From positions 1-34,016 of the forward strand of contig JABLXH010000013.1 of the NCBI GenBank assembly GCA_013178155.1: a stretch of DNA of 34,016 bases, written 5' to 3'. Under the pieces are notes generated by a model. The model was not told where the DNA came from and did not search any database. It was given only the letters and a program-made list of their open reading frames with translations. Position numbers and translations under genes: made by a program. Position 1 is the stretch's first letter, and each line of letters begins with the position of its first letter. Origin of the DNA: Armatimonadota bacterium (lineage in GTDB: Bacteria; Armatimonadota; Zipacnadia; Zipacnadales; UBA11051). Below, in pieces: positions 15,671 through 31,904 of the stretch.

Positions 15671-16714
15671 CTACCGCCATGTCAGCGGGTACTGTCCGTA
15701 CTCGTAGAAGGCCTCGTAGAGTGCCTCGATGTTCTCGAAGGGGACTTCCTGGCCGATCTCGCCGTGCAGCATGACGCCGCCAGCGTCGGTGCTGAAGGCC
15801 TCCATGGCCTCCTTGACCGCCTCGCGCACCTGGTCGGGCGTACCGAAGGGGATGACCCACTGGCGGTCGATGTCGGTGCGGATGCAGCAGCGGCCGCGCA
15901 CGATCTCCCCCACGCGCTTGGTGCCCATGCAGGGGTGCTGCGGGTTAAGCAGCGTGACTCCGATCTCGATGAGGTCCTCGATGATGTCCAGGATGTAGCC
16001 GTCAGAGTGGAACCACACCTCGATGCCGTTCTCGCGCGCGGGGGCCATCATCCTGGCGTAGCGGGGCTTGAAGAAGCGCCGCCACATCTCGGGGTTGATG
16101 AGCAGGCGCTCCTGTTCACCCCAGTCATCGCCGAAGCAGATGCAGTCCACGCCCGCCGCTACGTGGCGTTCGATGGTGTGCAGGTTGTACTCGACCATGC
16201 GGTCGGCCAGCTCATGGACACCCTCGTTGTCCTCAGCCAGGTCCAGGTAGAAGTTGGCGTTGCCCCGCAGGTGCTGCATGTGCTGGAAAAAGCCGCCTCC
16301 GCTGCCGCGCACGAACTCCCCGGCGGCCTTGCGCGCCGGCACCGAGGCGGCGAACTCCTCGTAGCTGCTCTCGGGCGGCAGCGGCGGAAACTCGTAGGTC
16401 CTCCAGGCATCCCAGTCGGGGATGGCGGGAATGTGCACCTCCCCCGACGTGTACCCCCTCATTCGCCGCCACGTGGTGCCCCAGGCATCCACCCATTCCA
16501 CAATGTCCTCCGCCGTCTCCGTTTCCCCCAGGGAATAGCCCGCGGCATTGGCCACGATGTTCTCGTTGCCGAAGTCATCGGGGTACTTCTCAACCAGGTC
16601 CAGGAGCTTCTGCCCATGGCGCCAGATGGCTCCTGGGAAGCAGTAATGGTGAATGGGTGCACGGTCCGGGCCTTCAAAGCGGATCGCGGCGAGAATGCGT
16701 TCGCGCGGGGTCAT
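15671..16714 (-). CDS. Uroporphyrinogen-decarboxylase-superfamily protein (methyltransferase-like)
   Basis: This 347-aa protein begins MTPRERILAAIRFEGPDRAPIH, the standard opening of URO-D-like methyltransferases (MtaA/MtbA relatives), and has AGGAG about 9 nt before the ATG. The TIM-barrel landmarks are CICFGDDWGEQ (DDxG motif) and EVWFHSDGYI. The latter sits where corrinoid methyltransferases carry the HxCG zinc site; here the Cys position is an Asp, so the metal site would be altered. The late segment CCIRTDID and VMLHGEIG completes the fold. HemE itself is unlikely because the sequence lacks HemE's usual motifs and there is no haem-gene context. The family is common in Armatimonadota, Planctomycetota and Lentisphaerota, often with MttB-type genes. 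The reaction is unproven; methyl transfer is inference. It is divergent from a second, distant URO-D-like gene. Confidence 0.8.
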   Translation of the reverse strand: MTPRERILAAIRFEGPDRAPIHHYCFPGAIWRHGQKLLDLVEKYPDDFGNENIVANAAGYSLGETETAEDIVEWVDAWGTTWRRMRGYTSGEVHIPAIPDWDAWRTYEFPPLPPESSYEEFAASVPARKAAGEFVRGSGGGFFQHMQHLRGNANFYLDLAEDNEGVHELADRMVEYNLHTIERHVAAGVDCICFGDDWGEQERLLINPEMWRRFFKPRYARMMAPARENGIEVWFHSDGYILDIIEDLIEIGVTLLNPQHPCMGTKRVGEIVRGRCCIRTDIDRQWVIPFGTPDQVREAVKEAMEAFSTDAGGVMLHGEIGQEVPFENIEALYEAFYEYGQYPLTWR

Positions 16715-19114: not shown

Positions 19115-19924
19115 CTACGCGGACCGGTCCAACCCGAAGATGCGCGCGGCGGTGCCGCCCATGACCAGGGCCCGGAACTCGTCGCTCATCTGCAGGTGGT
19201 CCATCAGGCGGCGGTAGTCGTTCAGCACATCCTCCATCATCTCGACACCAACGTCAGTGCCGAAGAGCACCTTCTGGTAGGGGTGGTTGTCACCCATCCG
19301 CCCGTACTGCTCGTCGCGACCCCACCACAAGAGCTCCGCGAAGTACTGTGGCGGTTTCTTCTTCATGCTGGACCCGGTCAGATCGAAGAAGACATTCGGG
19401 TGCATGCGAGCCAGTTCTGCCGCCTCCTCGTACCAGGGGTTACCGAAGTGGGCGCCGATGATCTGCAGCTCCGGCAGGCGCCTGGCGATACGGTCCAGGA
19501 AGACCGGGCGCATCCGTGCCATAGAGACGTCCCGGAAGCGCTGGTTGGGCTCGCGGGCGACGATGCCCAGGTGAAACAGCGCCGGCAGCCCCAGGGCCGC
19601 AGCGTGGTCGTAGATGGGCAGAAACTCGTCATCGTCGTAGTCGCGCAGCGGCCAGATGAACTTCAGCCCCTTGAGGCCCAGTTCGTGGACCCGATCAACG
19701 TCCTTGACCGTCACGGCCCCCAGCTGCAGGTACCCAAGCCCGATGAGCAGGTCGGCGTTGGCAGCCTGCAGCTCCGCGATCTTCTCGTTGCTGGCCCAGT
19801 CCGGGGGCCCGGCGCTGCAGACCACCACCCGGTCTATCCCCAGGCGGATACACTCAGCGCGCAGCCGGGCGACGTAGCCCTCCGGGTCCTGGGCGGGAAT
19901 GTGGTGGTGGGCATCAATGACCAT
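19115..19924 (-). CDS. Amidohydrolase-2 family TIM-barrel hydrolase
   Basis: This 269-aa protein starts at the ATG at 19924, preceded by AGGAGG; upstream residues in the open frame belong to the neighbouring gene's reading region. The metal-binding HxH of amidohydrolases (H6, H8 in MVIDAHHHI) opens the chain. Further ligands are likely at H118 (LFHLG), H159 (IIGAHFGNP) and D224 (LFGTDVGVE), the order expected for the Amidohydrolase_2 (PF04909) family. Family members hydrolyse or decarboxylate small metabolites such as lactones or aromatic acids. Its start overlaps the stop of the Gfo/Idh/MocA gene by 11 bp, so a lactone or acid made by that dehydrogenase is a natural candidate substrate. This is inference. 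Confidence 0.85.
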   Translation of the reverse strand: MVIDAHHHIPAQDPEGYVARLRAECIRLGIDRVVVCSAGPPDWASNEKIAELQAANADLLIGLGYLQLGAVTVKDVDRVHELGLKGLKFIWPLRDYDDDEFLPIYDHAAALGLPALFHLGIVAREPNQRFRDVSMARMRPVFLDRIARRLPELQIIGAHFGNPWYEEAAELARMHPNVFFDLTGSSMKKKPPQYFAELLWWGRDEQYGRMGDNHPYQKVLFGTDVGVEMMEDVLNDYRRLMDHLQMSDEFRALVMGGTAARIFGLDRSA

Positions 19925-20990
19925 CGTTTTCGCCTCCTGGCGCGACCAGCGCGGCCACGCGACCGGCCACATCGGCAGTCTGGTTTGTCGCCGAGGCCTC
20001 GGTCGCGGCAAAGAGCATGGCGGCGCTGAGAATGTTGTCGTCCAGTACCGTTTCGGGTGTCGGTCCGCCGTGGATCCAGTTCAGGAACTGATCGAGCACC
20101 GCCTGGTGGCCAACATAGGGCGGCTGCTCCAGTGGGACGTCGGTGACGCGCAGGCGGTGCCCGCCGAGGTGCTCCTGAAGCCGCACCACCCCGTCGCTGT
20201 CCACCACCACCGCTCCGGCTTCGCACTCGGCGCGGTAGTACTCCTGGTGCCAGCCGTTCGGTCGCCCCGCCTCGCTGCAGTTGCCCTCGTAGTGGGCGAA
20301 GACCCCGTTGGCCATGCGCATGACATAGGTGGCGCTGGATTCACCGTCAAAGCTGCTCCAGGGCGGGTTCCACTCCCAGCCAGCGATGGTCTCGCAAGGC
20401 GCGCCCGCCAGGTTGCGCAGCATGTCGAAATGGTGCACCGCCCCCTCGACCAGCAGTGAGTGCGGAATCTCATGACGGAACTTACCCCATGAGTTGCGCT
20501 GCCGGTAATCCTCGGCAAAGCGGCCCATCAGGTAGTTCGCCCGACCCACGACGCCATCGCGCAGGAGCTTGCGGAAGGTCAGCATCGCGGGGTTGTAGCG
20601 GTAGTTCTGGACGACCTGCATCCGCACGCCGGCTGCCTGGACCGCTCGATAGATGGCCTGGCAGCCTTCCCAGGTGTCGGCGATGGGCTTCTCGCTGAGG
20701 ATGTTCATCCCCCGTGCGGCCGCCAGCAGAACGGCCTGCTTGTGGAAGGCCGGCGGGACCACGATGAGGCAGAAGTCGGCCTCGATGCGAGCGAAGGCCT
20801 CCTCCATGGTGGCGAACCGGGCGTTGGCCGGGACGCCGAGGAGGTCGCCGGAGCGCTGCAGGGGCTCAGGCGCCAGGTCCACCAGCCCGGTGATCTGCAG
20901 GCGGTCCAGGAAGGGGGGCAGGAAGTTCGCGGCATAGGCGCCAGCAAAGCCCCCGGCCCCGATCATCAGACAGCGCAGGCGTGGTGTCAT
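19914..20990 (-). CDS. Gfo/Idh/MocA family NAD(P)-dependent oxidoreductase
   Basis: This 358-aa protein has AAGGAT upstream of its ATG. The N-terminal Rossmann motif (MIGAGGFAGAYAANFL, residues 9-24), the signature EKPIA (K101) and the catalytic-region segment EGAVHHFDMLRNL (H186/H187/D189) are characteristic of this family. Members oxidise or epimerise sugars, inositols and amino-sugars. It is the first gene of a two-gene unit with the amidohydrolase and faces away from the esterase/glycyl-radical-enzyme unit across 240 bp. A sugar or polyol substrate is likely from family knowledge; which one is not visible. Confidence 0.9.
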   Translation of the reverse strand: MTPRLRCLMIGAGGFAGAYAANFLPPFLDRLQITGLVDLAPEPLQRSGDLLGVPANARFATMEEAFARIEADFCLIVVPPAFHKQAVLLAAARGMNILSEKPIADTWEGCQAIYRAVQAAGVRMQVVQNYRYNPAMLTFRKLLRDGVVGRANYLMGRFAEDYRQRNSWGKFRHEIPHSLLVEGAVHHFDMLRNLAGAPCETIAGWEWNPPWSSFDGESSATYVMRMANGVFAHYEGNCSEAGRPNGWHQEYYRAECEAGAVVVDSDGVVRLQEHLGGHRLRVTDVPLEQPPYVGHQAVLDQFLNWIHGGPTPETVLDDNILSAAMLFAATEASATNQTADVAGRVAALVAPGGENDGH

Positions 20991-21230: not shown

Positions 21231-22265
21231 GTGCTGGCTGCACCGGACCTGCCCGAACTGCTGACCTATCGCGATCCCACCGGCCGCGCCAGGCGCATCC
21301 TGGTGAGCCGCGACTGGCCGCCCAAGCGCCGTGACATCATAGAGCGGTTGGAGGGGGTGCTGGGGCCATGCCAGACCGTTCGCCCCCCCTTGGCGCCTGA
21401 GATCCACTCCGAAGACGATGTGGGCGAGTACCTGCGACAGAGGATCAGCTATCAGGTGGAACCTGATGAACGCTGCAGCGCGTTGCTACTGGTGCCCAAG
21501 CCCGTGACCTACCGCCTGCCGTCTCTGCTATGCTGCCACCAGACAGTCCCCGAGGGCAAGGACGAGCCGGCTGGGCTGGCTGGACGACCCTCGATGCACT
21601 ACGCCGTCGAGTTGGTGCGACAGGGCTACGTCTGCCTCGTGCCGGACTCTATCACGGCCGGAGAACGCGTCTATCCGGGGTCTAACCCCTTCGACACGGC
21701 CCCGTTCTACCAACGGCACCCCCAGTGGAGTGCACTGGGAAAGATGCTTTGGGACCACCAGTGCGCTCTGGACCTGCTCTGCTCGCTGGACTACGTTGAT
21801 CCCGATCGCCTCGGTGTCATCGGCCATTCGCTGGGCGGTGAGAATGCGATGATGCTGGGCGCCTTCGACCACCGTATCAAGGTCACGGCGGTTAGCTGTG
21901 CCTATGTGCCCTTTGCCGTGGACCCCGAGCCAAACCGTTGGTGCCGCGACCACTGGTTTGTGTACATGCCGCAACTGCGCCCATACATCGACCAGGGGTT
22001 GCACCCGCCGTTTCTGTGGGTCGAAGTCCTGGGGCTCATCGCCCCGCGAGCGCTCTACTACTCCTACGCCGCGCAGGACAGCATCTTCCCCAACAGCAGG
22101 GCAGTGGCTGAGGACATGCGCCAGCTGGGGCGTCTCTATGACTTGCTGGGGTCGCGAGCCAGGTTGGCCTACTATGAAGACCCGGGCGACCATGACTTCA
22201 GCGATACGGCCCGTGAGGGAGCCTACCGGCTCATACGAAGTACGCTGAAAGCCAACAGGGCCTGA
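21231..22265 (+). CDS. Alpha/beta hydrolase (dienelactone-hydrolase/acetyl-xylan-esterase-like)
   Basis: This 344-aa protein starts at GTG (21231), 10 nt after GGAGGAG. There is no signal peptide, so it is probably cytoplasmic. The nucleophile elbow G-H-S-L-G-G gives Ser200; Asp283 (YAAQDSIFP) and His321 (DPGDHDFS) complete a well-spaced catalytic triad. LLCCHQTVPEGKDEPAGL is the oxyanion-loop region seen in esterases of this group. It is separated by 44 bp from the glycyl radical enzyme, so they likely form an operon. It is distinct from the hydrolase at 13532-14617. Esterase or lactonase activity is likely; the substrate is unknown. Confidence 0.84.
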   Translation: MLAAPDLPELLTYRDPTGRARRILVSRDWPPKRRDIIERLEGVLGPCQTVRPPLAPEIHSEDDVGEYLRQRISYQVEPDERCSALLLVPKPVTYRLPSLLCCHQTVPEGKDEPAGLAGRPSMHYAVELVRQGYVCLVPDSITAGERVYPGSNPFDTAPFYQRHPQWSALGKMLWDHQCALDLLCSLDYVDPDRLGVIGHSLGGENAMMLGAFDHRIKVTAVSCAYVPFAVDPEPNRWCRDHWFVYMPQLRPYIDQGLHPPFLWVEVLGLIAPRALYYSYAAQDSIFPNSRAVAEDMRQLGRLYDLLGSRARLAYYEDPGDHDFSDTAREGAYRLIRSTLKANRA

Positions 22266-22309: not shown

Positions 22310-24463
22310 ATGGTCAGTGAGCGTGTCCGACGGTTGCGACAGGTCGCCCTGGATCGCCAGGTGCAAGTGCCCTGGACGCGCAGCATGCTCTGGGGAGAGA
22401 GCTGGCGCGAGACCATCGGCAACCTCTGGTGGATCGAGCGCAAGGGCATCGCCTGTCGGCACGTGCTGGAGCATCTGCCGCTGGAGTTGGGGCCTGACGA
22501 GCTGCTGGTGGGACGGGCCTCGCTAAGGCCGCCAACACCAGAAGAACAGGAGCGTCTGGCCGCAGCCAACGAGTTTATGGCCGCCCAACCGCGCGTGGCC
22601 GGCCAGACCTGCCACATGGCGGTGGACAACGAGAAGCTCCTGCGCCTGGGCGCGTTGGGGGTACGCGCAGAGGTCGAGGCGTGCCGCCGGGCGCTAGACT
22701 TCTCGGACCCCGAGAGCCTGGAGAAGGACGCCTTCTATCGCGCCTGTCTCGAGACCCTGGAGGGGCTCATTTCCTTGGGCCGCCGGTATGCGGACATGGC
22801 CCGGAAAGCTGCGGCCGAAGAGCCTGACCCCGCGCGCAAAGCCGAGCTGGAGCGCATCGCTGCCGTCTGCGAGCGCGTGCCGGCACATCCGGCAGAAACC
22901 TTCCATGAGGCGCTGCAGTCGGTCCACTTTCTCACCATCGCGCTGGTGTACGGCGAGGGGCAGCCACTCTTCAACCCTGGACGTATGGATCGCTGGCTGG
23001 GGCCCTACTATGACGCGGACCTCGCGGCGGGCCGTCTCACTCGCGAACAAGCCCAAGAGCTCATTGACTGCTACTACATCCTGATCAACGAATACGTGCC
23101 GCGCGGCCTCGCCATCGGCCTCATGGTCGGCGGTACCGACGCCGCGGGGCAGGACGTCACCAACGAGGTATCTCATCTTTGCATCGAGGCCGTGGCACAT
23201 GTGGGATTGGCCTACCCCAGTGTCGGTGTGTGCTGGCACGAGGGTACGCCCGAAACTCTGACCTCACAGGCCTGCCGGGTGATGGCCCTGGGCAAGGGCA
23301 ACCCCTGCTTCTTCAACGACGCCGTCATCCAGGAGGGCTTGCGCCGTGCGGGCTGCAGTGCCGAACAGGCCTGCATGTACATCAACTCCACCTGCGTGGA
23401 GATCTCACCCATTGCCAGCAGCAATGTCTGGGTCGCCAGCCCCTATTTCAACACCACAGGACTGCTTCTGGAACTTGTGGACGATGTTGTGGCAGGCAAG
23501 GTGCCCGAACTGCCCTACAGCGACAATGAGCCGCCTCGCTGGGGCCTGGAGGAGCTCCATGAGACCTATTTCCGCCGGCTGAGCGGCCAGATCGCGCAGG
23601 CGGTGCGCGACCAGAACACCTACCGCCATGCCCGGCGCCGTTTCGGGGGCTTTCCTCTCCAGTCCTGCTTCACCAACGACTGCCTGGCCCGTGGGCTGGA
23701 CGCTGACTGGGGAGGGGCCCGCCACAACTGGATCGAGTGCAGCTTCGTGGGCTTGGCGAATCTGGTGGACTCGCTCACCGTGATCCGGCGCCTGGTCCTG
23801 GAGGACCAGGTCGTCACGCTCCGCGAGCTGCGTGACCGCGTGGCGGCGGATTTTGCAGGCTGCGAGGACTTCCGACAACTCTGCCTGCGGCAGCCCAAGT
23901 ACGGTAACGACGTCCCGGAAGTGGACGAACTGGCGGCGCGTTTCACTGAGTTCGTGACCGCTGAATGTTTGAAGCACACGGTACTGCTGGGTGACCGCTA
24001 CTACCCGGGCTTCTTCTGCTGGATCATGCACCAGCAGCTCGGGGCGGTAACGGGGGCCAGCCCCGATGGGCGGCAGGCCGGTTTCCCCTTCGCCGACGGC
24101 GCCGGACCGGCTCAGGGCCGGGAGCGCAGCGGCCCCACGGCGGCGATAAAGTCAACGACCTCCTGGGACCACACGATGATGCTGGGGGGGCTGGTGCTGA
24201 ATCTGAAGTTCAGTCCGTCGGCCGTGGACTCGCCCGAGAGCCAGGGGAAGCTGGCGGACCTGCTGATGACCTACCTGCGCCTCGGCGGTCAGGAGGTGCA
24301 GGTCAACGTCGTGCGACGCGAAGACCTCCTGCGTGCCCGCGAGAACCCTTCCGAGTACAAGGACCTCGTGGTTCGCATCGCTGGATACTGCGACTACTTC
24401 ACCGGTCTGAGCGAGCAGATGCAGGAGGAGGTCATCGCGCGGACGGAGTTCGAGGCGGTCTGA
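22310..24463 (+). CDS. Glycyl radical enzyme (PFL/dehydratase superfamily), divergent type
   Basis: This 717-aa protein has an AG-rich GGGGAG site upstream of its ATG. The C-terminal RIAGYCDYF (Gly692) followed by EEVIARTEF is the glycyl-radical motif, with Cys after GY where Ser is common. The active-site loop is NSTCVE (Cys362, Glu364), keeping the Cys-x-Glu dyad but replacing the GC of the usual GCVE. TFHEALQSVHFL, SPDGRQAGFPFADG and SGPTAAIKS are family landmarks. The length is somewhat shorter than the usual 780-850 aa. Members cleave C-C, C-O, C-N or C-S bonds or remove water, anaerobically, after activation by a radical SAM activase. No activase is in this window. It forms a probable operon with an esterase-like hydrolase. 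It is not a standard PflB (no CC dyad); substrate unknown. Confidence 0.9.
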   Translation: MVSERVRRLRQVALDRQVQVPWTRSMLWGESWRETIGNLWWIERKGIACRHVLEHLPLELGPDELLVGRASLRPPTPEEQERLAAANEFMAAQPRVAGQTCHMAVDNEKLLRLGALGVRAEVEACRRALDFSDPESLEKDAFYRACLETLEGLISLGRRYADMARKAAAEEPDPARKAELERIAAVCERVPAHPAETFHEALQSVHFLTIALVYGEGQPLFNPGRMDRWLGPYYDADLAAGRLTREQAQELIDCYYILINEYVPRGLAIGLMVGGTDAAGQDVTNEVSHLCIEAVAHVGLAYPSVGVCWHEGTPETLTSQACRVMALGKGNPCFFNDAVIQEGLRRAGCSAEQACMYINSTCVEISPIASSNVWVASPYFNTTGLLLELVDDVVAGKVPELPYSDNEPPRWGLEELHETYFRRLSGQIAQAVRDQNTYRHARRRFGGFPLQSCFTNDCLARGLDADWGGARHNWIECSFVGLANLVDSLTVIRRLVLEDQVVTLRELRDRVAADFAGCEDFRQLCLRQPKYGNDVPEVDELAARFTEFVTAECLKHTVLLGDRYYPGFFCWIMHQQLGAVTGASPDGRQAGFPFADGAGPAQGRERSGPTAAIKSTTSWDHTMMLGGLVLNLKFSPSAVDSPESQGKLADLLMTYLRLGGQEVQVNVVRREDLLRARENPSEYKDLVVRIAGYCDYFTGLSEQMQEEVIARTEFEAV

Positions 24464-26886: not shown

Positions 26887-28152
26887 TCAGGTCCGGCTTC
26901 GCGCCCTCTCCCGCTCGGCCGCCCGGAAGCGTCGGTACTCTTCCAGTGCCGCCGGAAAGGGCCCCAGCGCGCGCTCGAAGATGCCCAGGCTGTAGGCAAT
27001 GGTGACCCCGTAGTTGGTTATCGGCACGCCCTGCTGGCGGCATCGCAGAATCCGGGACAGCATCTCGCGGCGGTTCCACATGCAGGAGCCGCAATGCACA
27101 ATGAGCCGGTAGGGTGTCACATCCTCGGGGAAGTCGTGCCCCTGGACATTGGTGAACTCCAGCTTGCCGCCAACATATTGGGTCAGCCAGCGCGGTATCT
27201 TAACCGTGCCAATGTCCTCGCCGATGGGGTGGTGGGAGCAGGCTTCGGCGATCAGGACCTTGTCACCGGGTTGGAGACGGTCAATGGTCAACGCTCCCCG
27301 CACGAACTCAAACAGGTCGCCCCGGTACCGGGCGAACAGGATCGAGAAGCTAGTCATGGGCACGCTGGGCGGCGTGTCGGCGGCCACCTTCAGGAAGCCC
27401 TGGGAGTCGGTGACCACGATGGCCGGCGGGCGGTTCAGACGGTCCAGGGCGTCCCGCAACTCTCGTTCCTTGACGATCATGCAGTAGGCATCCACATCCA
27501 GCACGTCCCGGATGGCATTGACCTGGGGCAGGATGAGTCGTCCCTTGGGCGCCTCCAGGTCTATGGGCACCACCAGCACCGCTAGTTCGCCGGCGGGCAC
27601 CAGATCTCCCATGATGGAAGGGGCGTTGATGAAATCCTCAGGTGCGTTGCGGATGAGCGCCTCGCGCAAGTCCAGCAGGCCGTCCCCGGAGGTGGCGACG
27701 GTCTGCACCACTGGCGTCTTGGCAGACCTGAACCCCGCCAGCAGCTCCTCCGACGGCGCCGCCACGTCCACTTTGTTGAAGACGACAATGGTGGGGATCT
27801 CGCGCTGCTTCAGTTCGCCCAGTATCTGCTGCTCGAACTCCCCCCACTCCCCCGCAGCGGCCACTACGACACCGAGGTCGCAGCGATCGAAAATCTGGCG
27901 CGTTCGCGCTACCCTCAGCTCACCCAGCGCCCCCACGTCGTCAATCCCGGCGGTGTCTATGAACAGCACCGGCCCCAGCGGGAGCAGTTCCATGGGCTTC
28001 TCCACCGGGTCGGTAGTGGTCCCGGCGATGTCCGAGACGATGGACACGTCCTGGCGGGTCAGGGCATTAAGCAGCGACGACTTCCCCACATTCCTCCGTC
28101 CGAAGAGGCCGATGTGGAGTCGGAAACCCTTGGGTGTGCCTGCGGTTGCCAT
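26887..28152 (-). CDS. hydF: [FeFe]-hydrogenase H-cluster maturation GTPase HydF
   Basis: This 421-aa protein starts at the ATG at 28152; a GTG six codons upstream (28170) is possible but less consistent with the usual HydF N-terminus. GTPase motifs: P-loop GRRNVGKSS (18-26), GTTTDPV (44-50), DTAG (66-69) and NKVD (126-129). The Fe-S motif is C305-x-H307...H353-C354-x2-C357 (EACSHHP and VHCGSC), diagnostic for HydF. HydF is the scaffold on which the 2Fe subcluster is assembled by HydE and HydG before delivery to hydrogenase. Neither partner nor hydrogenase is in the window. It heads a hydF-gnd-zwf unit, a combination I do not know as standard. It implies that the cell makes or uses H2. Confidence 0.96.
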   Translation of the reverse strand: MATAGTPKGFRLHIGLFGRRNVGKSSLLNALTRQDVSIVSDIAGTTTDPVEKPMELLPLGPVLFIDTAGIDDVGALGELRVARTRQIFDRCDLGVVVAAAGEWGEFEQQILGELKQREIPTIVVFNKVDVAAPSEELLAGFRSAKTPVVQTVATSGDGLLDLREALIRNAPEDFINAPSIMGDLVPAGELAVLVVPIDLEAPKGRLILPQVNAIRDVLDVDAYCMIVKERELRDALDRLNRPPAIVVTDSQGFLKVAADTPPSVPMTSFSILFARYRGDLFEFVRGALTIDRLQPGDKVLIAEACSHHPIGEDIGTVKIPRWLTQYVGGKLEFTNVQGHDFPEDVTPYRLIVHCGSCMWNRREMLSRILRCRQQGVPITNYGVTIAYSLGIFERALGPFPAALEEYRRFRAAERERARSRT

Positions 28153-28279
28153 TCGCTGTCCAAACAACACCTTTCACTGGTTCGATGACGGGGCCCACGT
28201 CTCTGGTGCCTCCCCGTCGCTGACCGCGTCGAGACTCACACCGCGACAGGAGCGGTGGGCGCCCGCCGAGGCTGCTCCC
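28153..28279. other. 127-bp gap before hydF
   Basis: This minus-strand gap separates the secreted glycosidase-like gene (stop 28280) from hydF. It is large enough to hold a promoter for hydF. I see no strong terminator; whether hydF is read with the upstream genes is open. Confidence 0.35.
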
Positions 28280-30523
28280 TCAGAGGGTCGCCTGCGTGCG
28301 GCCCTGGTCAAGCCGGATCAGCCGCACATCATAGGGACGCAAGCGGAGCGTCAAGGTTCCCTGGTGGACGGGAAGATCGTGCCTCCGCCAGCGAGCGCGG
28401 GTTACGCCTGGCGGCAAAGTGATAGCCGCTGTCCGGGACTTGCTGATGGGGTTGACCACCAGCACCCATCCCGGGTCGCCCTCGATGGTACGCAACACCA
28501 CGCCCGGGGTGTTGGTCCGACAGGGGCGCTGGGCCTCTGGCCCCGTCAGGATCGGTGCCTGGGCCTCGATCTCTCGCGAAAGGGCCACCAGGTCGCGCCA
28601 CCGTCGTTCAAAATGAGCATCGCGCTGAAACTCGTGAAACGCATAGAAGAGCAGGCCGCGGGCCCCCTTGGCGAGAGCCAGATAGGTCAGCGCCCGGAGA
28701 CGCTCGCTACCATCGGGGGCGTTGCTGAAGTGCCAGAGGCAGGCCCAGAAGGGCGCGGTGGGCGGCAGGTCCTGCAGCACCGTGTCGCACATCCCCGGCA
28801 TCTCCAGCATCATCTGGTCCCAGTCGCGCCAGGGGTATAGCTCGGGCCCGAAGATGTCGTAGCTGGGGGCCAGTTCGCGGATGCAGGTCAGGTCCACATG
28901 CACCTGGATGGTCGGGTGCAGCGGGTCCTCCTCGTGCAGCCATCGTCGCAGGTCGCGCATGGCCGCTAAGTACTCGGTGCACAGCTCATCGTTGATGTAG
29001 TACCCGGCCATGGCCGGGCAGTCGCGCAGTCGCCGCGCCACGTCGCGGAAGGCCTGCTCGCGGCTGCTGAAGCCCGGGAAGTAGTGTCCCAATGGCTTCG
29101 CCCATGGCGTCTCATACAGGTTCACCGCCGGGATGAACCGCACCCCGCGCCGGGAACACTCCTCGGCATAGGCCTCGAGCGCCTCCGGACCGCCGTCCAG
29201 TGCGGAGTAGTCCAGCAGGCCCAGGGGCGTCCCCGCCAGATGGTCCAGGACATAGGTGACGTACTCCGGGTCCCGCTGCTCCCTGGCCGCCATCGTCCGG
29301 GGGTCCAGCGCCGTGGCGGCATAGACGAACATGGGCAGCCAGGTCCGACCTCGATCGCGCAGCAGGTTGTCGGGGCCGATGAGCGTGCCTTGCGCCGCCT
29401 CGGCGGGCGACAGGATGGTCCAGTCCAGGGCGCTCGCGTAGTCCGGACACCTTTCCGTGGCGAGCTTCACCTGCACCCGATAGCGCCCCGGTGGGAGGCT
29501 GCGGACGGGAAGGGGCAAGTTACGGTCGGCTCCGGCTGGCACCCGTGTCGCGGGGCTCTCCCCCACCAGGCGGCCGCCGGCGTCGCGGACGGTTGCGGTC
29601 AGGGCGCCGTCGCGGTACGCGCGGACCTTCAGACGCGGCACTGGCTGGCCAAGGGTGGTCACTCCGCTGTGCGGCTCCAGCAGGCACTCCACGGGGGGAC
29701 GCTTCACGGCAGGCTGCAGGACTCCCGGAGCCATGAGGTCGCGGCCGGTGGTGCGGTCTCGCAACAGGGCGCGGAAGCGGTACACGCCCTCCTGCAGCTC
29801 ACCGGTAGGAAACTCGAAGTCATGCCCGCCCCCGGCCGGCGCGGCCTGACCGTGGCCCTTGAGTGGGCCGTTCCATGGGGGCGTGCACAGCTCCACCGCC
29901 ACATCCACGTCACCAGGGATGACGTCACCCCGCGCCAGGTCCACCTGCACCCGGAAGGGCGGGCTATCCGCTGCCCCCACCACCTCCGGTGTCAGCACCC
30001 GCCAGCGGAGCACCTCCCGAACCGGGACTTCGGTGACTGAGATGTCGTCAATCCATGCCGCGCCCACGCCGTTCCAGTCCAGGGTGGCGTAGACCTCAGC
30101 CCAGGTCGTGCCGGGGGCAACTACCTCGCTCAGGAACCGCACCTCGGTCCAGTCGGTGGTCCAGCCCACACCCAGGGGACTGGAGCCTCCCAGAAACTGG
30201 TCGCCCCGCCACCATTGCAGGCCAAAGGTCGCCCCCAGCGCTGCCCCGTGGACGTCTTCGCTCTTCAGCCACGCCGACATCAGATGGCGCCGGCCGGGCC
30301 GCAGCGGCAGCTTCTGCGTAGCGATTCTGCGCCGCGCGGCGTCGTCCCAGGCGAAGCGCAGGCTGGCCGCCCCGCTATGGGCCACGGCGGTGTCTACGGC
30401 AAAGCCCTCAGGCAGGTCCCAGCCCTCCGCCCCTGCCTCGAAGCCAGGGTTCTTCACCAGGTTCGCCGCAGCCAGGGACGGCAGAGCCAGGGCGAGCGCT
30501 GCCATGAGCACAAGTCTACCCAC
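28280..30523 (-). CDS. Secreted TIM-barrel glycoside-hydrolase-like protein with CBM-like N-terminus
   Basis: This 747-aa protein starts at GTG (30523), with GTGGAG 7 nt upstream; a nearby ATG (30505) would remove the basic n-region of the signal peptide. Residues 1-20 are that signal (MGRLVLMAALALALPSLAAA). Residues 21-168 resemble CBM4/9 domains (NLVKNPGFEAGAEGW, AWIDDISVTE). Two beta domains follow (about 170-370). A TIM barrel spans about 390-680: YYINDEL (E513) fits the strand-4 acid/base of clan GH-A, and FGPELYP (E561) and FYAFHEF (E631) are nucleophile candidates. The end (about 685-747) is a small beta domain. It probably acts on polysaccharide in the periplasm or outside; family not assigned. 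It overlaps the MttB-like gene by 8 bp. Confidence 0.78.
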   Translation of the reverse strand: MGRLVLMAALALALPSLAAANLVKNPGFEAGAEGWDLPEGFAVDTAVAHSGAASLRFAWDDAARRRIATQKLPLRPGRRHLMSAWLKSEDVHGAALGATFGLQWWRGDQFLGGSSPLGVGWTTDWTEVRFLSEVVAPGTTWAEVYATLDWNGVGAAWIDDISVTEVPVREVLRWRVLTPEVVGAADSPPFRVQVDLARGDVIPGDVDVAVELCTPPWNGPLKGHGQAAPAGGGHDFEFPTGELQEGVYRFRALLRDRTTGRDLMAPGVLQPAVKRPPVECLLEPHSGVTTLGQPVPRLKVRAYRDGALTATVRDAGGRLVGESPATRVPAGADRNLPLPVRSLPPGRYRVQVKLATERCPDYASALDWTILSPAEAAQGTLIGPDNLLRDRGRTWLPMFVYAATALDPRTMAAREQRDPEYVTYVLDHLAGTPLGLLDYSALDGGPEALEAYAEECSRRGVRFIPAVNLYETPWAKPLGHYFPGFSSREQAFRDVARRLRDCPAMAGYYINDELCTEYLAAMRDLRRWLHEEDPLHPTIQVHVDLTCIRELAPSYDIFGPELYPWRDWDQMMLEMPGMCDTVLQDLPPTAPFWACLWHFSNAPDGSERLRALTYLALAKGARGLLFYAFHEFQRDAHFERRWRDLVALSREIEAQAPILTGPEAQRPCRTNTPGVVLRTIEGDPGWVLVVNPISKSRTAAITLPPGVTRARWRRHDLPVHQGTLTLRLRPYDVRLIRLDQGRTQATL

Positions 30524-31904
30524 GGAGGTACTCCACGGCGGCGGCGTAGACTTGGTCCACCTCGCGCGCCTGATGGTCGGTCAAGGCAAAAGTGCAGGAG
30601 GCGATCTCGTCCCGGGCTCGGGCCCAGGCTTCATCGAGAATCCTGCGGCTGCCCTCGCCGCGCCACCGGCCCATGTTCCAGTGGCGGAACAGGTCGGGGA
30701 AAGCGTAGAAGTCACGGAAGCGCCTCACCGTGTCCTCCACGCCCACGAATGTCCCCTCTTCCACACCCTGGGCGACCAGAGCGACGGGGTCCACCGCCGT
30801 ATCTTCGGGCAGCCCTGTGATGACCCGTTGGACGTAAGCCAGGATCTCCTGGTCAATGACCGCCTGCTGGGGGCTGAAGATCTCGTCTACCGAAAGCTGG
30901 CCCACGGCGCCGAAGCTACGGATGCCCAGAAGCGCCTGCCACAGCACCGCCGCAGTGCGCTCGGTCGCGGCCTGGGCGTCCGGGGCTTTGGCGACGGATC
31001 GGAACATCCCGGAACGCAGGGGGCGGCCGGTGAGGAAGTGGTGCATCTGGATGACCAGAGCCCGGTACAGGCACCATTCCGGTGATCCGAAGACGATAAA
31101 CGAGTACTGGAAGTCGAAGGGCTCGACGCGCAGGCCCAGGCCGCCGCCTAGGCCCAGGGCGCGGCACAGCAGGTCATGGCCGATGGCCTCGGCCACCGAC
31201 TGCACCAGAGCCGCGCGCGGGTCCAGAGGACAGGTCGCCCCCGCCATCGGGATGGAGCCGGTGATGGTGACGTTGACGTCCGGCTGGCCGAGGAACTCAA
31301 AGACGGTCTGCAGGCCCAGGTGGTCGAAGCGTAGCGGACTGATCGGTACCTGCTCCACCAGGCTGTAGACACGCCCCGCCGCCAGGTTCATGGCGATCAG
31401 GTAGCGCACTTCCTCGGGGTCGGTCACCGTCATTGAGCCGCCCAGGCGCGAGGAGTGGAGCAGGGCGATCCGCTCTGTCGCCAGTGTCACCAGGCGGGGC
31501 GGCACATCTCCGGGCTGCAGCGGCGGTACTCCGCCGTAGCCTCGCGCTTCCCAAAGTCTCGCCATGGCGATGGCCTCGCTGGTGGTACCCGGGCGCACGA
31601 TCCCTGTCTGCGGGTCGCAATAGGCCAAAGCGGCCCAGGAGCCGCCCATGGAGAGGCGCCGGTCGTCGGGCTCCGGGGCACCGGCATAGCGCCGGCTCAG
31701 GACATGTTCCCGCGTGGGTTCCACCGCGAAGCGCAGTCGGCCGGCGCGGTAGGTGATCCCGCCGAGCGCCAGCATGCGCTCAACGGTGGGCTGGTGCTCG
31801 CAGGCGATGCCGATCTCCGAGAGGACGCGCAGCGCGTCCTCAAACACGCTCTCCAGGTCCGTCTCGGTCCACGCGGGGCCGAGCGTCGGGTTCCAGATGG
31901 GCAT
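30516..31904 (-). CDS. MttB/COG5598 family (trimethylamine methyltransferase-like) protein
   Basis: This 462-aa protein has no signal peptide and starts at ATG with a weak GAGG about 12 nt upstream. The C-terminal block RRFRDFYAFPDLF...RWRGEGSRRILDEAW is the MttB-family signature, preceded by VAQGVEEGTFVGVEDTVR. The glycine-rich stretch GLGGGLGL (about 250-257) and MHHFLTGRP are also present. No in-frame amber codon is used, so it is of the non-pyrrolysine group, whose characterised members (MtgB, MtpB) demethylate quaternary amines such as glycine betaine or proline betaine and pass the methyl to a corrinoid protein. No corrinoid protein is in the window. Its stop overlaps the next gene (secreted glycosidase) by 8 bp. 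The substrate is not predictable. Confidence 0.85.
   Translation of the reverse strand: MPIWNPTLGPAWTETDLESVFEDALRVLSEIGIACEHQPTVERMLALGGITYRAGRLRFAVEPTREHVLSRRYAGAPEPDDRRLSMGGSWAALAYCDPQTGIVRPGTTSEAIAMARLWEARGYGGVPPLQPGDVPPRLVTLATERIALLHSSRLGGSMTVTDPEEVRYLIAMNLAAGRVYSLVEQVPISPLRFDHLGLQTVFEFLGQPDVNVTITGSIPMAGATCPLDPRAALVQSVAEAIGHDLLCRALGLGGGLGLRVEPFDFQYSFIVFGSPEWCLYRALVIQMHHFLTGRPLRSGMFRSVAKAPDAQAATERTAAVLWQALLGIRSFGAVGQLSVDEIFSPQQAVIDQEILAYVQRVITGLPEDTAVDPVALVAQGVEEGTFVGVEDTVRRFRDFYAFPDLFRHWNMGRWRGEGSRRILDEAWARARDEIASCTFALTDHQAREVDQVYAAAVEYLRG

Follow-up and report, generated by a model that had tools for sequence, protein, structure and literature searches.

An STCVE-loop subfamily of glycyl radical enzymes in Armatimonadota, predicted to be eliminases and putatively activated by a shared enzyme

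The glycyl radical enzyme (GRE) encoded at 22310..24463 of the window, the window being the whole 34,016-bp stretch of DNA analysed here, is in our judgement likely to be a functional, oxygen-sensitive glycyl radical eliminase of a new subfamily, probably activated in trans by the activase found on contig C166 of the same genome. For the anaerobic Armatimonadota more generally, we lean slightly towards a picture in which a single stand-alone activase, linked to carB, serves every or almost every one of a genome's mutually dissimilar GREs, which can number as many as nine; these orphan GREs would include a new subfamily of STCVE eliminases acting on a substrate particular to it. The features referred to are as follows, with the evidence for each in brackets.

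19914..20990, minus strand: Gfo/Idh/MocA-family sugar oxidoreductase, divergent from the hydrolase–GRE pair; context only (profile match)
21231..22265, plus strand: alpha/beta hydrolase of the Abhydrolase_7 / glucuronyl-esterase-like type, separated by 44 bp from the GRE that follows it (profile match)
22310..24463, plus strand: GRE of the STCVE clade, predicted eliminase (PF02901, PF01228, AlphaFold2, Foldseek)
22613..22615, plus strand: codon of His102, which aligns with His164 of glycerol dehydratase and does not vary within the STCVE clade (alignment)
23381..23407, plus strand: Cys loop INSTCVEIS, spanning residues 358-366 and holding Thr361, the thiyl-site Cys362 and Glu364, the proposed base (alignment)
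23423..23446, plus strand: pocket segment NVWVASPY, residues 372-379, with Val375/Ala376 at the positions of glycerol dehydratase His446/Asp447 (alignment)
24005..24034, plus strand: PGFFCWIMHQ, residues 566-575, with Phe569/Trp571 at the positions of glycerol dehydratase Tyr640/Ser642 (alignment)
24374..24400, plus strand: Gly loop RIAGYCDYF, residues 689-697, with Gly692 (radical site) and Cys694, which is private to this protein within the clade (alignment)

The gene is intact, running from an ATG start to a TGA stop over 717 codons for amino acids, and a ribosome-binding-like stretch (GAGGGGAG) lies about 12 bp 5' of the ATG. Its matches to PF02901 (E = 2.2e-119) and PF01228 (E = 6.7e-27) show that this is no chance ORF. 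The AlphaFold2 model (pLDDT 92, pTM 0.92) found its best Foldseek matches in propanediol dehydratase (5i2g) and glycerol dehydratase (1r8w), with TM scores of 0.92-0.93 at about 30% identity. The superfamily radical motif RVxG[FWY] is present as RIAGY at residues 689-693, with Ile in place of Val, and the Cys-loop cysteine, Cys362, sits in the expected barrel fold (model against GRE structures, TM 0.9). Alignment placed Cys362-x-Glu364 within NSTCVE and Gly692 within RIAGYC exactly as the initial annotation had described them, and its account of the reference loops was also correct: pyruvate formate-lyase (PFL) has CCVS, and glycerol/propanediol dehydratase, CutC and HypD have GCVE.

By sequence, the closest solved relatives are CutC, propanediol dehydratase, glycerol dehydratase and HypD, yet the protein reached no NCBIfam GRE cut-off and fell far under every GRE equivalog, those for HypD, CutC, sulfopropanediol dehydratase, HPAD, IAD and PFL included; the scores were 379 bits of 1100 for HypD, 350 of 1050 for CutC and 433 of 678 for the PFL2-3 subfamily. 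In a 65-row tree it fell into a clade of 22 proteins, itself included, with SH-aLRT support of 99, drawn from Armatimonadota and Lentisphaerota; further STCVE members from Oscillospiraceae (L024, G070) and Chthonomonadales (G075) were left out of this tree. All seven references (glycerol and propanediol dehydratases, CutC, HypD, PflD, YbiW and PFL) lay outside the clade, so that the tight clustering with a characterised family that would have spoken against a separate group was not seen. Clade members are 42-62% identical to the window GRE, which shares with them, besides monophyly, the traits that we propose for the clade: the STCVE loop, a WV(A/T) pocket segment and an FCW or FAW strand. Judged by sequence, the enzyme is thus a member of a GRE subfamily in which no characterised member was found, much as had been surmised from the two unusual residues of its loops.

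Those two residues differ in what they contribute to that assignment. Thr361, which replaces the Gly of the dehydratases, is invariant in the clade and accompanied by pocket changes; it is also found in a broader adjacent group whose loops read STCTE, and is therefore an old feature that has been kept. The Cys after the radical Gly-Tyr, on the other hand, was rejected as a mark of the subgroup: within the clade only the window protein has it, the other members having Ser or Thr at what is a variable position, and it recurs in scattered fashion in other GREs. That private Cys, and the lack of an adjacent activase, might be taken as signs of a pseudoenzyme, decayed or kept for regulation, on which no radical is ever installed, but we think this highly improbable, given that the radical and acid–base residues are all kept, that full length has been retained across phyla at the identities given above, and that a Cys at this place in the Gly loop is found in other GREs.

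What the enzyme does can be approached through its active site, where the statements on the pocket and on individual residue roles are drawn from the alignment. Residues His281, Ser282, His446, Asp447, Tyr640 and Ser642 of glycerol dehydratase correspond to Pro219, Leu220, Val375, Ala376, Phe569 and Trp571, and the Phe333 loop is missing. The STCVE clade typically has Trp571, Leu220 and the Val-Ala/Thr pair, but it is variable at Pro219. The three residues of the Clostridium butyricum enzyme that we take to be substrate-contacting in its structure, His281, Ser282 and Asp447, are thus all replaced (by Pro219, Leu220 and Ala376). Together with Thr361, Trp571 and Phe569, the Val375/Ala376 pair suggests a different and less polar pocket, and therefore a substrate other than those of glycerol and propanediol dehydratase. 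It could still be argued that this is a known dehydratase of that type in which the loop change is harmless, as the closest solved folds are the propanediol and glycerol dehydratases and both the CxE motif and the His are retained; the identity of only about 30%, the replacement of the substrate-contacting residues, the scores below the PFL2-3 cut-off and every equivalog, and the position in a separate clade make this very unlikely.

The reaction type is better indicated. The CxE motif is common to, and conserved among, GRE eliminases, and in HypD its Glu contacts the substrate hydroxyl, with His160 2.5 Å from it and beside Glu436 (PMC7077986). Both elements are found here, the motif as C362-V-E364 and the His partner of the Glu as His102, and both are invariant in the clade. 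This precedent, taken with the pocket changes, leads us to expect an elimination on a substrate unlike glycerol, and the sequence makes a dehydratase-type eliminase the most likely prediction. An active GRE of another kind, a C-C lyase, a decarboxylase or an addition enzyme, is a decidedly unlikely alternative; the loss of the polar contacts of glycerol dehydratase and the gain of Trp and Phe would suit it, but the Cys-Cys pair of PFL is absent, CxE with its His partner is the eliminase arrangement, and the protein scores far under the arylacetate decarboxylase equivalogs. For the predicted eliminase, we propose that a radical-SAM activase would take a hydrogen atom from Gly692, that the glycyl radical would pass to Cys362, and that the resulting thiyl radical would take a hydrogen from the hydroxyl-bearing carbon of the substrate; Glu364, tuned by His102, would accept the hydroxyl proton, the beta leaving group, most likely water, would leave, and the product radical would regain its hydrogen from Cys362. 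The activase would act in trans: it would be the single GRE activase of the genome, encoded on C166 beside carB, and the six other GREs would depend on it as well.

The net reaction would probably be the removal of water from a small sugar-like molecule. The hydrolase gene and the GRE gene are likely to be co-transcribed, and a distant hydrolase (25% identity, E 2e-23) lies at the equivalent place in G046/L102. Sugar-isomerase-like TIM barrels are found near STCVE GREs in G009, G046 and G070, and other neighbours of STCVE GREs include Gfo/Idh/MocA proteins, an alpha-L-rhamnosidase and GH4. Assignment of the substrate by gene-neighbourhood association was rejected, the neighbours being unconserved across some 20 orthologs; because of this, and because the TIM barrels are not close homologues of one another, the context does not fix the substrate, and it hints only weakly at one derived from carbohydrate, a polyol or an acid. 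Elsewhere in the window we noted, all on the minus strand, a URO-D family protein (15671-16714), an MttB-family (trimethylamine methyltransferase-like) protein that falls well under the TIGR02369 cut-off (30516-31904) and HydF, the [FeFe]-hydrogenase maturation GTPase (26887-28170; 558 bits, cut-off 325.6). HydF is present although the paper naming the class Zipacnadia reports its MAGs to be without FeFe hydrogenases (PMC10290634). That paper describes Ca. Zipacnadia, to a family of which the source genome probably belongs, as fermenters or acetogens that live anaerobically in marine sediment.

GREs are typically encoded near their own activase (PMC11528403). A whole-genome scan found no TIGR02494 activase on the window's contig, C35 (34,016 bp); as the window is that entire contig, the absence holds as far as the two contig ends and no further. 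The source genome, a 5.53-Mb draft in 211 contigs (95.6% complete), holds seven GREs, on which PF02901 and PF01228 agree, and one GRE activase, these counts and those below coming from family searches. The only activase above the TIGR02494 family cut-off, which scores 362 bits, stands alone beside carB on C166, a contig that carries none of the seven GREs. The remaining PF13353/TIGR02494 candidates were NrdG2, AmmeMemoRadiSam, QueE-like and SPASM-like proteins, with no second GRE activase among them. The seven GREs are mutually dissimilar, with the loops GCIE, CCYE, GCHE, GCGQ, GCME, GCTE and TCVE, and the six others are likewise under every GRE cut-off. Two of them have features of their own: a GRE on contig C18 (L088, 3030-5330, plus strand), whose start overlaps an FAD-dependent oxidoreductase gene, combines a PFL-like Cys-Cys with CxE in the loop SCCYEN, also seen in G016, and one on C168 (L090, 9259-11511, minus strand), flanked by a sulfatase and a zinc alcohol dehydrogenase, has Cys-Gly-Gln in place of CxE.

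The same imbalance is seen across the phylum. The 61 Armatimonadota genomes contain 189 PF01228 GRE matches and 65 TIGR02494 activase matches; 41 genomes have both, 18 neither, one a GRE only and one an activase only (Fisher p 3e-13 for co-presence, uncorrected for relatedness). At least three GREs per activase were counted in 16 of them, so that the lack of an activase near the window GRE, which the initial annotation had thought unusual for a GRE, holds for the contig but is not exceptional; the unpaired activase that it proposed to look for elsewhere in the genome exists on C166, but appears to be shared rather than the private partner of this GRE. The GRE-to-activase ratio also varies among comparison genomes from other phyla, with ratios like that of the source genome in Chthonomonadales G075 (7:1), Solincola G078 (5:1) and two Dehalococcoidia (4:1 and 3:1), and six of each in G072. 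The Oscillospiraceae genome G070 (of L042) has 18 GREs, and loops of the CxW type (GCHW or GCNW, for example) occur in several of them; its activase matches number 19, some being fragments of one gene. Four GREs whose loops read GCNQ stand in tandem next to a family 4 glycoside hydrolase (L169, 6775-15692, minus strand) in a genome labelled Oscillospiraceae that has nine GREs and two activases in all, and in a Lentisphaerota locus (L022, 7543-15355, plus strand) three different GREs, the middle one STCVE, stand in a row before a single activase.

In ten genomes, the source included, the activase is close to carB, which encodes the carbamoyl-phosphate synthase large chain, with at most one short gene between them; its place is therefore conserved independently of any GRE. 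These activases mostly group together, but support for a single clade was moderate and extended to nine of the ten, G007 having no clear position. In its simplest reading, the gene count points to one broad activase, still putative, for several GREs. The competing explanation is that every GRE has an activase of its own, most of which were lost in assembly or missed by the TIGR02494 model. For the source genome taken singly such loss is possible because it is an incomplete draft in many contigs, activases elsewhere do usually lie near their GRE (PMC11528403), and several genomes of the phylum have adjacent GRE–activase pairs, in which the further activases sit by their own GRE. We nevertheless consider it unlikely, since G016, 98% complete in 40 contigs, holds a single activase for nine GREs, the same counts recur in G055, G045 and G020 each have eight GREs with one activase, searches with the PflA model (in nine genomes) and with Fer4_12 yielded no additional activase, and random loss would not strike activases about three times as often as GREs.

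Sharing of an activase would run against the view that these enzymes are highly partner-specific, with cross-reaction atypical (PMC10239695). STCVE GREs adjoin a TIGR02494 activase in G059, in Lentisphaerota loci and in G070, and the clade would therefore be a normal substrate of such activases. We looked for tighter conservation of the glycyl domain where a genome has one activase and found none: the ratio of glycyl-domain to body conservation was 1.18-1.24 in such genomes, compared with 1.30 in G070 with its 18 GREs and 19 matches to activases, so that no trace of this kind of a shared activase was seen in the sequences. A search of the available literature returned no report of one activase for many GREs, nor of Armatimonadota GREs, and the word glycyl does not occur in the main text of the paper naming Zipacnadia (PMC10290634). 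Seven to nine GREs with one activase would challenge the rule of a partner-specific, GRE-adjacent activase, and such genomes would show that a GRE without an adjacent activase is not thereby dead. If the shared-activase reading is true, these lineages hold a general-purpose activase, which could be broadly usable for work in vitro, together with a collection of orphan GREs. The STCVE clade, well delimited and present in more than one phylum, is a target in which a new eliminase reaction of anaerobic carbon turnover might be found.

Among known systems, the 1,2-propanediol dehydratase of R. inulinivorans (5i2g) and the glycerol dehydratase of C. butyricum (1r8w) resemble the window GRE in fold, Gly loop, Cys-Val-Glu motif and catalytic His, but have Gly rather than Thr before the Cys; where glycerol dehydratase has His281, Ser282, Asp447, Tyr640 and Ser642, the window enzyme has Pro, Leu, Ala, Phe and Trp, and it lacks the Phe333 loop. 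The trans-4-hydroxy-L-proline dehydratase HypD (6vxc) shares the eliminase fold and the CVE motif and has a similar Gly domain, but joins other sequences with full support, and the window protein scores 379 bits against its cut-off of 1100. PflD and YbiW of E. coli are eliminase-like GREs, YbiW and a streptococcal PflD having been solved with anhydrohexitol phosphates, which are ligands derived from sugars; they differ in their GCVE or GCIE loops, lie on separate branches and, unlike the window GRE, are encoded beside their activases, PflC and YbiY. The Cys-Cys pair of pyruvate formate-lyase (CCVS) is replaced by TCVE. For the sharing of an activase, the nearest likeness is IbsAE: this activase of an X-succinate synthase is reported to act on BSS, a further GRE, as well, an atypical case among related synthases (PMC10239695). 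There one activase acts on more than one GRE, as proposed here, but its partners are related X-succinate synthases, whereas in Armatimonadota the genomes suggest that seven to nine dissimilar GREs may share a single activase.
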